Source: Pseudomonadota bacterium
GTDB lineage: Bacteria > Desulfobacterota > Desulfovibrionia > Desulfovibrionales > Desulfovibrionaceae
Length of the DNA: 64,000 nt
NCBI GenBank assembly: GCA_018817515.1
Contig: JAHIUD010000093.1
Location: 1-64,000, forward strand
Reading direction: 5' to 3'
Notes under the pieces: generated by a model
What the model saw: the letters and a program-made list of their open reading frames with translations, nothing else
The model's database searches: none
Told to the model about the DNA's origin: nothing
Part shown: piece after piece, positions 27,754-36,084 of the stretch
Layout: each line of letters begins with the position of its first letter
Position numbering within the stretch: position 1 is the stretch's first letter
Made by a program: the position numbers and the translations under genes

Positions 27754-27891
27754 GGTTCCTGCGCTTGGGTTCCTACGCCAAGCCCTTATGACAAGATTCC
27801 GCCTGGTCCAACCAGCGGTAAAGTCGAGTCTCCTTGACACTCCTGGCGTGCTTCAGGCAAAATGCATGTCAAGATTGGCATACTCAGCGCG

Positions 27892-27927
27892 ACCCCGCAC
27901 GCCCCGCACGCCCCGCACGCCCCGCGC
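27892..27927. repeat. 9-bp tandem repeat gccccgcac, about 4 copies
   Basis: accccgcac|gccccgcac|gccccgcac|gccccgcgc, upstream of the moeA-like gene. Confidence 0.9.
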
Positions 27928-27956
27928 TCCATACCGCGACATACCCGGAGGCCAGC

Positions 27957-29939
27957 ATGTCTGACCCGAATACATTGAACGACCGCAACGTCTACCTTTC
28001 CACCATCCCGCCGGAGCAGGCCGTGCTCCTGGCGAAGTCCGCCCTGGACCGCCCGAAGCTCGTCCGCGAGGAAATGGTCCCGGCCCACGAGGCCTGCGGG
28101 CGCGTCACCAGCGGCCCCATCTTCGCGCGCTGCTCCTCGCCCACCTTCCATGCCGCAGCCATGGACGGCATCGCCGTGCGCGCCAGCGACACCTTCGCCG
28201 CGCGCGAGGGCAGCCCCGTGACCCTCACCAAGCCGCTCTCCTTCACCCCGGTGAACACCGGGCACAGCCTGCCCGGCGGCATGGACGCCGTGGTCATGAT
28301 CGAGCACGTGGACCAGGTGGATGATAACACCGTGCGCATCGAGGCCCCGGCCTTCCCCTGGCAGCACGTGCGCCGCATCGGCGAGGACATCGTGGCCACC
28401 GAGCTTCTGCTGCCGCAGAACCACACCCTCTCGGCCTACGACATCGGCGCGCTTCTGGCCGCCGGAATCTTCGAAGTGCCGGTGTGGGAGCGCGTGCGCC
28501 TGACCTTCATCCCCACGGGCGACGAGGTGCTGAACTTCCTGGACAAGCCCACGCCCTTTCCCGGCCAGGTCATCGAATCCAACTCCCAGGTCTTTCGGGC
28601 CATCGCTACCTCCTGGGGGGCCGTAGCCTCCTTCACCACGCCCGTGCCCGACCAGCCGGAGCTCCTGAAGGCCGCAGTGAACCAGGCCCTGCTCGACGGG
28701 GCGCACATCGTTGTGGTGGGCGCGGGTTCCTCGGCCGGGAGCAAGGACTTCACCCGCAGCACCTTCGAGGCCTTTGGCGAGGTCCTGTGCCACGGCATCT
28801 CGGTGATGCCGGGCAAGCCCACTGTGCTGGGCGTGACGTCGAGGAAATTCGGTGGCGAGCTGCGCGGGCGCCTGCTCGTGGGCGCGCCGGGCTATCCGGT
28901 GAGCGCCGTGGTCTGCCTGGAGGACGTGCTGGAGCCCATCGTGCGCTGGCTGATGCGCCAGCAGTCTCCCGGCCGCCAGAAGATCCACGCCCGGCTGGCC
29001 CGCAAGACCCCGAGCCGCCCCGGCATGGAGGAGATCGTGCGCCTGGCCGTGGGCCGCGTGGGCGATGGCTTCGTGGCCTCCCCCCTGGCTCGTGGTGCCG
29101 GGCTCATCACCAGCCTGACGCGCGCCCAGGCCGTGACGCGCATACCGGCCCAGAGCGAAGGCCTGGAGCAGGACGCCGACATCGAGGCCGAACTGCTGGT
29201 GCCGCAGGCCGGGCTGGACCGGGTGCTCATGCACATCGGCAGCCACGACAACATCCTGGACCTCCTGGCCAACGAGCTCATGGGCCTGCCCGAGCCCCTG
29301 CGCCTGGTGTCCAGCCACGTGGGCAGCATGGGCGGGCTCACGGCGCTGAAGAACGGCTCGGCCCTGTTCGCAGGCTGCCACCTCTTCGACCCCGAAACCA
29401 GGGACTTCAACTTCCCGTTTCTGCAAAAGCACCTGCCCGGGCTCGACCTCGTGGTCCTGAACCTGGCCATCCGCCACCAGGGGCTCATCGTACCCAGGGG
29501 CAACCCCAAAAACATCAAGGGCGTGGCCGACCTGACCCGTCCCGAGGTGAGCTTCATCAACCGCCAGCGCGGCGCGGGCACGCGCATCCTGCTGGACCAC
29601 CACCTGAACGTGGCGGGCATCTCGCCCACGATCGTGCGCGGCTATGACCGCGAGGAATTCACGCACATGGGCGTGGCCGTGAACGTGCTCACCGGCGCGG
29701 CGGACTGCGGCCTGGGCATCTTCGCCGCGGCCAAGGCGCTGGGGCTCGACTTCGCGCCCCTGGCCCACGAGCGCTACGACCTGATCATTCCTGCGGCCTA
29801 CCTCGACGACATGCGCATCCAGACCCTGCGCACGGTCATTGAGACCCCGCAGTTCCAGGAACGCATGAAGGACCTGGGCGGTTACGAGACCACCTTCACG
29901 GGCCGGATCATGGAGCCGGGCATGGGCTTGGGGGAATAG
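27957..29939 (+). CDS. MoeA-like molybdopterin biosynthesis domain fused to C-terminal periplasmic-binding-like (PBP) domain
   Basis: MoeA: AAAMDGIAVRA, GGMDAVVMIEHV, IPTGDEVL, GSSAGSKDF, GKPTVLGV; PBP-like: HIGSHDNILDLLA, RGNPKNIKGVADLTRPEVSFINRQRGAGTR. Confidence 0.9.
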   Translation: MSDPNTLNDRNVYLSTIPPEQAVLLAKSALDRPKLVREEMVPAHEACGRVTSGPIFARCSSPTFHAAAMDGIAVRASDTFAAREGSPVTLTKPLSFTPVNTGHSLPGGMDAVVMIEHVDQVDDNTVRIEAPAFPWQHVRRIGEDIVATELLLPQNHTLSAYDIGALLAAGIFEVPVWERVRLTFIPTGDEVLNFLDKPTPFPGQVIESNSQVFRAIATSWGAVASFTTPVPDQPELLKAAVNQALLDGAHIVVVGAGSSAGSKDFTRSTFEAFGEVLCHGISVMPGKPTVLGVTSRKFGGELRGRLLVGAPGYPVSAVVCLEDVLEPIVRWLMRQQSPGRQKIHARLARKTPSRPGMEEIVRLAVGRVGDGFVASPLARGAGLITSLTRAQAVTRIPAQSEGLEQDADIEAELLVPQAGLDRVLMHIGSHDNILDLLANELMGLPEPLRLVSSHVGSMGGLTALKNGSALFAGCHLFDPETRDFNFPFLQKHLPGLDLVVLNLAIRHQGLIVPRGNPKNIKGVADLTRPEVSFINRQRGAGTRILLDHHLNVAGISPTIVRGYDREEFTHMGVAVNVLTGAADCGLGIFAAAKALGLDFAPLAHERYDLIIPAAYLDDMRIQTLRTVIETPQFQERMKDLGGYETTFTGRIMEPGMGLGE

Positions 29940-30008: not shown

Positions 30009-30806
30009 TCAGCGCTTTTTCAACGCCCCGTGCTTGCCGCCCTTCCGGCCACCTTTGCTGCCAAAGGGGCACACCGACACGCAGACCCCGCAGATGCCGC
30101 CTGTGATGTGCGGCAATTTGCTGAACTCGTTCAGGATCTTGTCCCGGCAGCTCTGGAAGCGTAGCGCCTCCTCGCGCGAGGCGTAGTGGCTCGTGGTGTT
30201 CACGCCACGGATGGCCTGGGCCGGGCAGGCCTCGGCGCAGACGCGGCATTTGCCGCAGCGGTTGGCCAGCGGCGCATCCGGGGGCAGGTCGAGGTCGGTG
30301 AGCACCGTGACCAGCCGCACGCGCGGGCCGAACTGCGGCGTCACCAGCAAAAGGCTCTTGCCCTGCCAACCCAGTCCGGCGGCCAGGGCCACGGCCTTGT
30401 GTGAAATGTACGAGGTCAGGTTCTCGGCGTCGAGCACCTGCGAGGCGGGCAGCGGCAGCGCCCGGCCCCCGGCCTTCTGCAACGCCAGGGAGGTGCGCAG
30501 GGCCAGCTCGTCGAGCAGGGCGTTCACCTTCTGGTAGTGCTGGGCGTAGAGCGGCGTGGGCCGGTCCTCAATGGCGTCCAGGATCGGGTCGCTCAGGCGC
30601 ACGCCCAGGCTCACCGCGCGGGTGAAGCCGGAGAGCAGGTCAGCGGGCTCGGTCCGGATGCCGCGCAACAGCTCCAGGTCGGCGATGCCCACCAGGGTCG
30701 CGCCCCAGCCGCGCGCGCGGTCCTTCAGGCCATAGGTGTCGATTCCGCGGATGTCCTCAGTCTTCAGCCTGGGCTGCATGCAGCATCCCTCCTGTGCTTG
30801 GCCCAC
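30009..30806 (-). CDS. 4Fe-4S ferredoxin-type protein, epoxyqueuosine reductase-like
   Basis: ANRCGKCRVCAEACPAQAIRG and CGVCVSVCPFGSKGG clusters; AALAAGLGWQGKSLLLVTPQFGPRVRL. Confidence 0.8.
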   Translation of the reverse strand: MGQAQEGCCMQPRLKTEDIRGIDTYGLKDRARGWGATLVGIADLELLRGIRTEPADLLSGFTRAVSLGVRLSDPILDAIEDRPTPLYAQHYQKVNALLDELALRTSLALQKAGGRALPLPASQVLDAENLTSYISHKAVALAAGLGWQGKSLLLVTPQFGPRVRLVTVLTDLDLPPDAPLANRCGKCRVCAEACPAQAIRGVNTTSHYASREEALRFQSCRDKILNEFSKLPHITGGICGVCVSVCPFGSKGGRKGGKHGALKKR

Positions 30807-32415: not shown

Positions 32416-33036
32416 ATGATCGCCATTCTGCTTATCCTCGTGGCCTTCGGCCTTGGCGCAGTGCCCTTCGGCCTGTACGTGGCGCGCTTTGTAAAAGGCA
32501 TCGACCCGCGCGACGCGGGCAGCAAGAACATCGGCGCGACCAACGTGGCGCGGCTGTGCGGCACGCAGTGGGGCGTGCTGGTGCTCGTGCTCGACATCTG
32601 CAAGGGCTATCTGCCTGCGGCCATGGCCCCGGAGGGCACGGGCTGGCTGGCGCTTTCGCTCATCGGCGCGGCGTCCATCGCGGGACACGCGTACTCGCCG
32701 CTGTTGCAGTTCAAGGGCGGCAAGGCCGTGGCCACGACCATCGGCGTGTTTTTGGCGCTGGCCCCGTGGGCCATGTTCTTCTCTGTGATTGCCTGCCTGG
32801 GGGTCATCGCGCTGTCGGGCTATGTTTCCATGGGCTCGCTCACCCTCGCTCTCGCCCTGCCGTTCTTCAGCTTCTTCACGGGCAACCTGCGCATGCTGCC
32901 GCTGTCGCTGGGCGTGATGCTGTTCCTGTTCTGGCGGCACCGCGAGAACATTCTGCGGTTGGACAGAGGGGAAGAGATGCCCTGGCGCAGGCGCAAGGAT
33001 GATCCGGTTACGGAGCCGCCGGATTTGGAGGGGTAG
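32416..33036 (+). CDS. plsY: Glycerol-3-phosphate acyltransferase
   Basis: VPFGLYVARFVKGIDPRDAGSKNIGATNVAR; GHAYSPLLQFKGGKAVATTIGV. Confidence 0.92.
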   Translation: MIAILLILVAFGLGAVPFGLYVARFVKGIDPRDAGSKNIGATNVARLCGTQWGVLVLVLDICKGYLPAAMAPEGTGWLALSLIGAASIAGHAYSPLLQFKGGKAVATTIGVFLALAPWAMFFSVIACLGVIALSGYVSMGSLTLALALPFFSFFTGNLRMLPLSLGVMLFLFWRHRENILRLDRGEEMPWRRRKDDPVTEPPDLEG

Positions 33037-33062
33037 AGGGCGGGATTTTTCATTAATATAAT

Positions 33063-33089
33063 TAAGTGAGTTTCTGTATATCTCACTTA
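33063..33089. promoter_or_regulatory. 8-bp perfect inverted repeat (candidate operator or hairpin) at the start of the AT-rich island
   Basis: taagtgag-N11-ctcactta read directly between plsY and the RelA/SpoT-like gene. Confidence 0.45.
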
Positions 33090-33197
33090 TTTTGTGTGCC
33101 CATTGACATAGCCCATCATGTTTTGCAAAAGTCATTGCATAGCTCTCGTCAAAACGCTCCACGCTCGACCTTGATTAATCATGGGGGAGTAGTAAGC

Positions 33198-34313
33198 ATG
33201 GACAAAGCCCAAAGCATATACGACGCTATTGAAGCGAAGTATCAAGAGATATACTCACTCCGAAAGCGTTTTGAAGGTGACTTCAAAAAAATCATTAGCG
33301 ATATCCTATCGTCGGAAGGTTACGAGTTCATACTATTGTCTGTTAGGACAAAAGAAGTCTTCAGCTTTGTTGCAAAAGCTAACAGGCCTAAGCAAAATGG
33401 GAAAGGCAAAAAATATAAAGACCCATTCAATCAAATCACTGACATGACTGGTGTAAGAGTTATCGTGCAATACAAAGATAAGGCACGTAAAATTGACAAG
33501 CTACTTAGATGCAAGCTGAATGTAGATGAAATAAATTCAAAAGATACAATTGCTGAATCAAATCCAAAAGAATTCTCATATCCTTCAATTCAGATAATTG
33601 CAAAGATAACCGACGAGCTAGCAGTCGAATACGACTGCCAATGTATAAAGGATTGGAAAATTGAAATTCAAGTACGTACAATCTTAGAGCACGCATGGTG
33701 TGAACTATCAAGAAGCATATTCTATAACAGAGACGTGCCAGATGAACACGTTCGCGACCTTTCTGAATTGTCAGCACGCATTGAAAGAACGGACAAAGAT
33801 TTTATTGAGCTACGGGAGAAGGTTGGCCAACTGATCGGCAAAGATAAAACAACAAATAAGGTTGACCAACCGATCGGTAAAGATAAAGTGACAAAGAGCG
33901 AAGTTAAGCAAAACATTAGCACATCTGAAATTATTGACATGCTCAATAAGTCAAACATTGTAAAAGATATTAGAAACAAATTAGCAAAACAGGGGTTGAC
34001 GGCTAGTACGTCCGCGAGGAATGACTACGCGGAAAGAATCTCAAGCATACTCAGACGGCAAGGTGCTGAAAGCAGGCAAGACGCTGAAGACAAGATGAAT
34101 GCAAAGATCGACCTTATTGTCGATGCATGCGTGTTACACATGACAGCGACAAACATGACGTCATACCCTACCGACTCACTCCTTGAAGCTGCGCTTGCCA
34201 TAGTCGATAACGGCGAGATCACAGCTGAAGAGTACAGCAAAGAGTGGAGTGATAGGTGGAAGGACGGATTTCGTAAGGCTTCGAAAGAATACGACGAGAA
34301 ACACAAGCGATAG
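33198..34313 (+). CDS. RelA/SpoT-domain protein, divergent small alarmone synthetase-like, in AT-rich DNA
   Basis: SVRTKEVFSFVAKANR, FNQITDMTGVRVIVQY, FSYPSIQIIAKI, KIEIQVRTILEHAWCELSRSIFY match the ppGpp-synthetase fold; unusual C-terminal helical region. Confidence 0.75.
   Translation: MDKAQSIYDAIEAKYQEIYSLRKRFEGDFKKIISDILSSEGYEFILLSVRTKEVFSFVAKANRPKQNGKGKKYKDPFNQITDMTGVRVIVQYKDKARKIDKLLRCKLNVDEINSKDTIAESNPKEFSYPSIQIIAKITDELAVEYDCQCIKDWKIEIQVRTILEHAWCELSRSIFYNRDVPDEHVRDLSELSARIERTDKDFIELREKVGQLIGKDKTTNKVDQPIGKDKVTKSEVKQNISTSEIIDMLNKSNIVKDIRNKLAKQGLTASTSARNDYAERISSILRRQGAESRQDAEDKMNAKIDLIVDACVLHMTATNMTSYPTDSLLEAALAIVDNGEITAEEYSKEWSDRWKDGFRKASKEYDEKHKR
33819..33896 (+). repeat. Imperfect 39-bp direct duplication in the RelA/SpoT-like gene
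   Basis: aaggttggccaactgatcggcaaagataaa... then aaggttgaccaaccgatcggtaaagataaa...; encodes KVGQLIGKDKTTN/KVDQPIGKDKVTK. Confidence 0.85.
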
Positions 34314-34326
34314 AGACGCCGCCCCC

Positions 34327-36084
34327 CTACTGCACCACCCCGCTCCCAGGCTCCCAGTCGGCCAGCCAGTCGTCGGGTGAGAGCGTATCGCTCGGCTCCG
34401 CGCCAGGCGCATTCATGGGCCCGACCATGGCGTCCATGGGCAAGCGCCCCAGGATGGCCGCCACCAGCGGGATGAGCCCCTTGCGCGCAAGCGCCGTCAC
34501 CGGAATGCCCGCCGGGTACAGCCGCTGCATGATCTCGCGCTGCTCCTCGGTGAGTAGCTCCCACTTGTTCAGCGCCAGCAGCCTCGGCGTATCGCCCAGG
34601 TCCATCTCGGAGAGGATCGACTCCACCGCCATGATCTGCTCCACCACCTCCGGGTGCGAGGCATCGGCCACGTGCACCAGCACGTCTGCGGACTCCAGCT
34701 CCTCCAGCGTGGCGCGGAAGGCTTCCTTCAGGTCCGGCGGCAGACGGCGGATGAAACCAACGGTATCGGTCAAGATCACCTCGCGCTCGCGCGGGAAACG
34801 GATGCGCCGGCTGGTGGGGTCCAGCGTGGCGAAGAGCTTGTCCTCGGCCAGCACGGCGCTGCCGGTGAGCGTGTTCAGGAGCGTGGACTTGCCCGCGTTG
34901 GTGTAGCCAACGAGCGCGATGACCGGTGCCCCGGCCTTGGAGCGGCGGTCGCGCGTGCTGGAGCGGTGGCGGCGCACGTCCTCCAGGTCCTTCTTGACCT
35001 TGGTGATGCGCTCGCGGACCCGCCTGCGGTCGATCTCAAGCTTGGTCTCGCCCGGGCCGCGCCCGCCGATGCCGCCCATGAGCCGCGACATGGCCGGGGT
35101 TTTGCCCACCAGGCGCGGCAGCGTGTACTTGAGCTGGGCCATTTCGACCTGCAGCTTTCCGGCGCGGCTGGTGGCCCGACGCGCAAAGATGTCCAGGATC
35201 AGCTGGGTGCGGTCGAGCACGCGGCGCTCGGTGGTCTCGGCCAGGTTGCGCAGTTGCGAGGGCGAGAGGTCCTGGTCGAAGATGACGATCTGCGCGCCGG
35301 TTTGCAGGCACAAGACTTCCAGCTCCTGCAATTTGCCCTTGCCCAGGATGTGCCGGGAGTCGGCGGTACTCACGCGCTGGATCATGCGCGCCGAGGCGGC
35401 AAGTCCTGCCGTGCGGGCCAGCTCGGTCAGCTCCTCCAGGCTGCGCTCCTGCACGATGCGCGGATCACGCGACACGCTGACCAAGACCGCGCGTTCGCGG
35501 CCCTTGTCCTCGGTGGTGGCGCTCTCGGCCCGGGCGAACTCGTCTTCCAGGGCGGAGACCAGCGCGGCGAAATCCACCTCGGAGCGGTCCCAGCGCACGG
35601 GCGGCAAAACGTCGTAGGGCTTGGTGTCTGCGCTGGCCGCCGGGTTGATGGGCACCACGTGGGCCACATGCAGCATCACCGGCTCGCCGAAGTCGTTGAC
35701 GGTGAGGGCCGAGACGCTGTCCAGGCGCAGGGAGACCATGTCCATGAGGTCTTCCTGGGACAGCGCCTCGCCCGAGAGGTGCGTGTGCAACAGGCGCAGG
35801 CCGCGCAGGCGCATCTCGCCCAGGCGGGCGCGGGGCAGCTCCGGTATGTAGATGGAGGACGGGTCGCCCACGATGAGCATGTCCACGCGGCCCTGGCGGT
35901 CGATGAGCAGGCCGAGCTGGCGTCCGCAATCGCGGCTGGCGAGGGTGAGCTCCCGGGCCTGGTCCGAAGTAAAGCCGCCCCCCGCAGGCGGGAAGCGGCG
36001 TGTGGTCAGGCGCGAGAGACGCTGGAGCTGGCTGGGCTTGAGCCCTTGGGTGTTGCCTTGTGGCTTTTGGGCGATGGTGGTCAC
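34327..36084 (-). CDS. hflX: GTPase HflX
   Basis: FDQDLSPSQLRNLAE, GGIGGRGPGETKLEIDRRRVRERI, ALVGYTNAGKSTLLNTLTG, LTDTVGFIRRLPPDL. Confidence 0.94.
   Translation of the reverse strand: MTTIAQKPQGNTQGLKPSQLQRLSRLTTRRFPPAGGGFTSDQARELTLASRDCGRQLGLLIDRQGRVDMLIVGDPSSIYIPELPRARLGEMRLRGLRLLHTHLSGEALSQEDLMDMVSLRLDSVSALTVNDFGEPVMLHVAHVVPINPAASADTKPYDVLPPVRWDRSEVDFAALVSALEDEFARAESATTEDKGRERAVLVSVSRDPRIVQERSLEELTELARTAGLAASARMIQRVSTADSRHILGKGKLQELEVLCLQTGAQIVIFDQDLSPSQLRNLAETTERRVLDRTQLILDIFARRATSRAGKLQVEMAQLKYTLPRLVGKTPAMSRLMGGIGGRGPGETKLEIDRRRVRERITKVKKDLEDVRRHRSSTRDRRSKAGAPVIALVGYTNAGKSTLLNTLTGSAVLAEDKLFATLDPTSRRIRFPREREVILTDTVGFIRRLPPDLKEAFRATLEELESADVLVHVADASHPEVVEQIMAVESILSEMDLGDTPRLLALNKWELLTEEQREIMQRLYPAGIPVTALARKGLIPLVAAILGRLPMDAMVGPMNAPGAEPSDTLSPDDWLADWEPGSGVVQ

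Follow-up and report, generated by a model that had tools for sequence, protein, structure and literature searches.

The plsY-hflX locus

The window (the whole stretch of 64,000 nucleotides analysed here) has a GC content of 65.5%, and between its plsY and hflX genes lies a single gene for a RelA/SpoT-domain protein (Table 1) with a GC content of 40.7% (GC3 42.7%), as against 69.2% (GC3 91.3%) in hflX. This bears out the original prediction, made from the letters of the stretch, of one AT-rich gene of ~371 aa in a GC-rich core, and the reading frame is intact. A ribosome-binding-like GGGGGAG lies shortly before the start codon; an alternative in-frame start, GTG at 33066, would yield a product of 415 aa. 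As only 161 bp separate the gene from plsY and 13 bp from hflX, the island has no room for a second gene, and neither an antitoxin nor an alarmone hydrolase gene, by whose presence a toxSAS pair is recognised, is adjacent to it, in agreement with the earlier view that no separate antitoxin is encoded. Just 5' of the start is a palindromic stretch (GATTAATC core; 33164-33189), which could be an operator. The protein matches the Pfam RelA_SpoT model (PF04607) with 56.7 bits (E 3.4e-15), well above the cut-off of 27, and the only other match to this model in the same genome is the long Rel, a frame of 737 residues.

Table 1. Features of the plsY-hflX locus in the window
Feature	Position	Strand	Remarks
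plsY	32416..33036	+	conserved left flank
Cargo slot of the plsY-hflX hotspot	33037..34326	.	14 genomes, gap of 574 to ~2,870 bp, changing cargo
RelA/SpoT-domain gene, phrog_9640 member	33198..34313	+	ATG at 33198, stop codon ends at 34313, 371 aa
ATP-binding stretch R50-x-K52-S56-K60-R63	33345..33386	+	R50, K52 and K60 in 98/98 sequences; spacing as in FaRel2 R64/K66/S70/K74/R77 (PMC11782079)
ITDMTGVRVIV with D82 and adenine-stacking R87	33435..33467	+	D82 and R87 in 98/98 relatives
Altered G-loop F126-S-Y128-P-S-I-Q132 (usual F-G-Y-x-S-x-H)	33573..33593	+	Ser127 and Gln132 unique among 98
EIQVRT catalytic strand (E156, Q158, R160)	33663..33680	+	invariant in the alignment, partly by construction
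R172-S-I-F-Y176-N177, in place of the relatives' H-x3-Y-K	33711..33728	+	R/N only in the window protein and G009
In-frame 39-nt tandem duplication in the inter-domain linker	33819..33895	+	linker shorter in G009; pLDDT <50 at residues 217-236
Helical C-terminal domain, residues ~242-371, candidate sensor/autoinhibitor	33921..34310	+	pLDDT 89.4 and pTM 0.84 when predicted alone
hflX	34327..36015	-	conserved right flank

The SYNTH domain and its acceptor side

The N-terminal side of the protein (residues ~1-216) constitutes the SYNTH part. An AlphaFold2 model, for which the input comprised the window protein and 69 relatives found by locus search (with the G009 homologue described below left out), has a mean pLDDT of 85.6, and its best Foldseek matches among solved structures are the synthetases SaRelP and BsRelQ (E 5e-9 for SaRelP, to 1e-8), with CapRel lower (E 1.9e-5). 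In an alignment of 98 sequences, D82 and E156 fall on the catalytic Asp and Glu of all the relatives, and the predicted SYNTH fold was thus recovered both by model and by alignment; as the viral relatives were gathered with a search pattern that included the EIQVRT strand, conservation from E156 to H165 is partly by construction and was given no weight. R50, K52, K60, D82, R87 and Y128 are invariant in this alignment, S56 and R63 each match the most frequent residue in their column, and the motifs R50-T-K52, S56, K60, D82 and E156-I-Q158-V-R160-T all lie where they had been placed beforehand. Since the donor-site residues are all kept, the donor side is intact, and the earlier suggestion of a changed donor nucleotide finds no support.

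The G-loop reads S127-Y128-P129-S130-I131-Q132, in which the usual Tyr and Ser are kept and the GYxSxH pattern is broken by replacement of the Gly and the His. Position 127 is Gly in 86 of the 98 sequences and position 132 is His in 97, with Ser and Gln found there solely in the window protein. The claim of an altered loop stands, these two positions being the remarkable ones; it had named the His and an Arg after the Tyr as replaced, and the loss of the Arg is unremarkable by itself because that residue varies across the relatives (R, Q, L, K, S and others). A sequencing error is unlikely to account for the loop, as three separate codons differ. When YPSIQIIA was searched as a degenerate DNA pattern in viral contigs, five stretches were returned, none of them with a detectable RelA/SpoT relative. 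The H354Y variant of E. coli RelA was set aside as evidence on the G-loop His, because H354 presumably lies past the catalytic strand, near the equivalent of R172, and outside the G-loop.

Beyond the catalytic strand, the His and Lys of the H-x3-Y-K element, present as H172 and K177 in 96 of the 96 other relatives and retained in SaRelP and in the host's own long Rel, are replaced by R172 and N177 in the window protein and G009 alone. The substitutions cluster on the acceptor side of the site; going by sequence, a changed acceptor is plausible, although R172 with the basic residue after N177 could preserve charge there. The authors of the FaRel2 structure connect the use of tRNA as acceptor, in place of nucleotides, with a positive patch that is reduced on that side (PMC11782079).

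The C-terminal domain

The SYNTH part is followed by a linker and a discrete domain predicted to be helical (Table 1). No counterpart was recovered in the PDB by sequence or by fold, the best match having E 1.6. A search with the domain alone, over 395 genomes of the phylum, plasmids and viral contigs, recovered it in the source genome and nowhere else; in relatives it can be recognised only when the full-length profile is used. The idea of an internal antitoxin-like domain thus holds in so far as a discrete domain is present, and fails for an antitoxin of the CapRel type: the latter is a beta-type pseudo-zinc-finger with a YXXY motif (PMC9712102), whereas the window domain is predicted to be helical and a direct reading of the window protein showed no YXXY. 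CapRel of Salmonella phage SJ46 is comparable in being a phage-borne single polypeptide with an N-terminal SYNTH and a C-terminal domain, and in being without the H-x3-Y-K element; it differs as a tRNA pyrophosphokinase with a normal G-loop (GYSGIH, as against SYPSIQ). Membership of the CapRel group was rejected on the helical prediction, the lack of a PDB match for the C-terminal domain and the lack of YXXY.

A member of the phage-borne family phrog_9640

Among phage families, phrog_9640 matches best (E 5.8e-39; residues 9-312 against profile positions 5-297 of 365), and the window gene belongs to this RelA/SpoT family as a mobile gene that stands alone. Like the other members it is a single gene in an AT-rich accessory position, and the similarity extends over the full length, with most of the C-terminal domain included; it differs in Ser127/Gln132, which are its own, and in R172/N177 and a diverged C-terminal domain, which it has in common with G009. 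Two narrow viral scans returned no relatives, and a wider alignment then gave 80 viral-contig loci that encode them (64 clusters at 70% identity). At 74 of the 75 testable viral loci the relative's gene has a lower GC content than its flanks (mean difference 12 points), and the strands of the neighbours are mixed, as expected for solitary accessory genes. One set of relatives is found in P2-like prophages between the baseplate gene V and the tail gene R, and another near integrases; among the named carriers are a filamentous Vibrio phage and a prophage of Mycobacterium abscessus, as well as a Klebsiella plasmid of 3.5 kb whose largest annotated gene is the relative. A search of public genome contigs for close homologues gave one weak match, in a Bacteroidetes MAG. 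In one subgroup of relatives the upstream neighbour is constant and encodes an NA37 nucleoid-associated domain.

Two further observations concern these contexts. The V/R placement in P2-like prophages (L130, L139, L143, L145, L157, L166) differs from the better-known tin/old site. The NA37 (37-kDa nucleoid-associated) partner lies directly upstream, touching or overlapping the RelA/SpoT gene, in viral and plasmid relatives (L142, L163, L175, L177, L178; L115:6784-8867), and the two could form a two-gene system.

The sole PADLOC match is to the candidate family PDC-S33 (E 8.5e-12, no cut-off being given), a weak match that spans the SYNTH region and ~50 residues more and covers just the middle of the profile (positions 64-257 of 349). 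No PDC-S33 member is known to have been tested, and we found no activity or phage test of any phrog_9640 member.

A hotspot of cargo genes in the genus

The junction was compared in the window's genome and 14 genus mates. In 14 of these 15 genomes plsY and hflX are convergent and the gap is always filled, mostly with unrelated genes; among the genus mates, one has a RelA/SpoT homologue at the junction, 12 have other genes and in one plsY was not found beside hflX. A homologue inherited vertically throughout the genus was thus not found, and the proposal of a horizontally acquired single-gene module is supported.

Besides the RelA/SpoT gene (two genomes, the window's and G009), the cargo by Pfam and PADLOC comprises a CAP12/Pycsar-type TIR protein (PDC-S35; PADLOC E 4e-74); a weakly similar TIR/deoxyribosyltransferase-like protein (two genomes, scanned with Pfam/PADLOC in one); a protein kinase whose best PADLOC matches are mad6 and PD-T4-6; a HicA-like toxin; an NYN protein; a DUF6119 protein (two genomes, scanned in one); a DUF4747 protein with an adjoining membrane protein, and a two-gene pair resembling these; a GIY-YIG-like protein identified by eye; and, in one GC-rich case, TPR and C_GCAxxG_C_C genes, which are not defence-like. 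The NYN, DUF6119 and DUF4747 proteins are without a PADLOC match. Across the junctions (L025-L038) the cargo is mostly AT-rich.

The same core genes thus flank exchangeable cargo, predicted defence-type genes included, in 14 genomes, and the plsY-hflX junction is a small core-genome hotspot that takes up accessory genes, several of which resemble defence genes. It resembles P2/P4-type prophage and core-genome defence hotspots in its fixed flanks and exchangeable defence-type cargo (PMC9122126, PMC9519451), and differs from them in its very small size (0.6-2.9 kb), often with one gene, in its convergent flanks, in having no integrase or tRNA, and in breakpoints near stop codons: homology between species reaches both stop codons, or within a few bases of them, and then ends. 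Genomes whose hflX is closest to that of the window (94-96% identity) have other cargo at the junction, implying that turnover is fast. Recombination through the conserved flanks would be the simplest route of exchange; site-specific insertion was discarded, as no tRNA, integrase or telling repeat was found at the junction. The neighbouring junctions are mostly near-constant, with one other (genes 27786-29768 and 30009-30806) also enlarged, in two genomes. In three other genera of the family that have the plsY-hflX pair, a cation-efflux-type gene lies in the gap (ORFs read by eye).

Several features of these regions were noted in passing. G-runs often follow both flanking stop codons (TAG-AGGG ... 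CCCCTA; 33037-33050 and 34314-34329 in the window, and in genus mates), placing the cargo between short inverted G-runs. Three genus mates (L032, L034, L037) have in common a GC-rich gene of ~200-230 aa (IYAQGDLDGACFLYSIVNAY...) between cargo and hflX. Another genus of the family has a GC-rich plsY-hflX gap of ~8 kb with several apparently chromosomal genes (G030, L095:1432-9400). At another locus (L008:967-2046), the genus mate G014 has a RelA/SpoT frame of 360 residues in which the loop, GYRGVHL, is CapRel-like.

A sister gene at the same junction

The homologue in the genus mate G009 is full-length and 42% identical to the window protein (37-42% in the C-terminal half), with flanks that are 76-82% identical. 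In the tree the two proteins are sisters (support 0.995), with the viral-contig protein L118 branching beside them (0.956), and the branch leading to the window protein is long (0.93). As G009 retains a normal G-loop (GYSSIH), the change in the loop arose on the lineage of the window protein. The pair could descend from one fast-diverging ancestral cargo gene or reflect the separate arrival of two related genes. A gene beside the G009 copy is absent from the window island.

Proposed function and alternatives

By sequence, structure model and analogy, and with moderate confidence, we propose that the window protein, encoded by a mobile phrog_9640 gene in the plsY-hflX hotspot, may be a pyrophosphokinase that needs no partner, is probably autoinhibited and acts in abortive infection, possibly on a changed acceptor; the lone RelA/SpoT gene is probably one more swappable phage-defence gene. 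The SYNTH domain would bind ATP and pass its beta-gamma pyrophosphate on to the hydroxyl of an acceptor positioned against Tyr128. Attached through a flexible linker, the helical C-terminal domain would keep the enzyme inactive until it is released by infection or by some other trigger. Growth would then be halted by the product or by the acceptor once modified, and arrest or death of the infected cell would limit phage production. CapRel, with sensor and toxin in one gene, offers a precedent with a different C-terminal fold (PMC9712102), and the prophage-encoded SYNTH protein gp29 of Phrann has been linked to the exclusion of other phages (PMC8118318).

Catalytic activity, C-terminal autoinhibition and a role in defence are what we infer for the window protein. 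Of the defence module suggested originally, the part that stands is contextual, namely the PDC-S33 match, the occurrence of the family in phages and the presence of Pycsar/TIR-like, kinase and toxin-like genes at the same junction in genus mates. The defence reading is weakened by the status of PDC-S33 as a candidate family matched in the middle of its profile, and by cargo such as the C_GCAxxG_C_C and TPR genes. The loss of the nearly invariant G-loop His could mean weak or no activity. Most speculatively, the acceptor face formed by S127/P129/Q132, R172 and N177 might favour an acceptor other than GDP/GTP, with tRNA 3' ends and adenine nucleotides as candidates. We attach a small probability to the larger idea that the lineage of the window protein and G009 comprises effectors held off by a new helical domain, with a pocket rebuilt in two steps (R172/N177, then S127/P129/Q132) around an acceptor new to the superfamily.

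It is unlikely that the protein is an ordinary small alarmone synthetase, an accessory stress regulator making (p)ppGpp or pGpp in which the G-loop changes are near-neutral. RelP and RelQ, the best solved-structure matches to its SYNTH domain, have no C-terminal helical domain, carry a GYRSxH loop and score far above the cut-off of 320 of the curated NCBIfam YjbM model (RelQ/YjbM-type), which the window protein misses with 38.5 bits; that they are its closest solved relatives, and that Tyr128 and Ser130 are retained, speaks for this reading, as does the finding that the Arg after the Tyr in RelQ serves allostery and that synthesis persists without it (PMC5794853). The extra domain, patchy distribution and high turnover of the locus are unlike those of housekeeping synthetase genes, and three otherwise near-invariant acceptor-side residues (H132, H172, K177) are changed.

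A decaying or catalytically weak copy, one that persists only for a time following its transfer or that now serves in binding and no longer in catalysis, is quite unlikely. The frame is open over all 371 codons, every donor-site residue is present, the C-terminal half keeps its identity to G009, and the substitutions are concentrated in one functional patch instead of being spread over the invariant residues, even if the loss of the G-loop Gly and His in the window copy alone, the duplication in the linker and the long branch are what decay might leave. It is also quite unlikely that the protein is the toxin of a pair with its antitoxin elsewhere, neutralised for instance by the hydrolase of the long Rel that the same genome has: toxSAS enzymes are usually accompanied by dedicated antitoxins or alarmone hydrolases (PMC11782079) and the NA37-domain partner is fixed in a subgroup of relatives, but the island cannot accommodate a partner gene, the gene next to the G009 copy is missing at the window locus and neighbours vary among most relatives.

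Significance

The assignment to phrog_9640, the plsY-hflX hotspot and the 42%-identical sister gene with its shared R172/N177 are new here. On what determines the acceptor of RelA/SpoT enzymes (GTP, ATP or tRNA), the window protein and G009 offer a ready-made comparison, being a natural pair at one locus with an altered G-loop in the former and a normal one in the latter. The junction is a small, easily scanned slot in the genus, and its DUF6119, NYN and DUF4747 plus membrane protein cargo, having no PADLOC match, provides testable candidates for defence genes. The family phrog_9640 gains a proposed fold, architecture and role.
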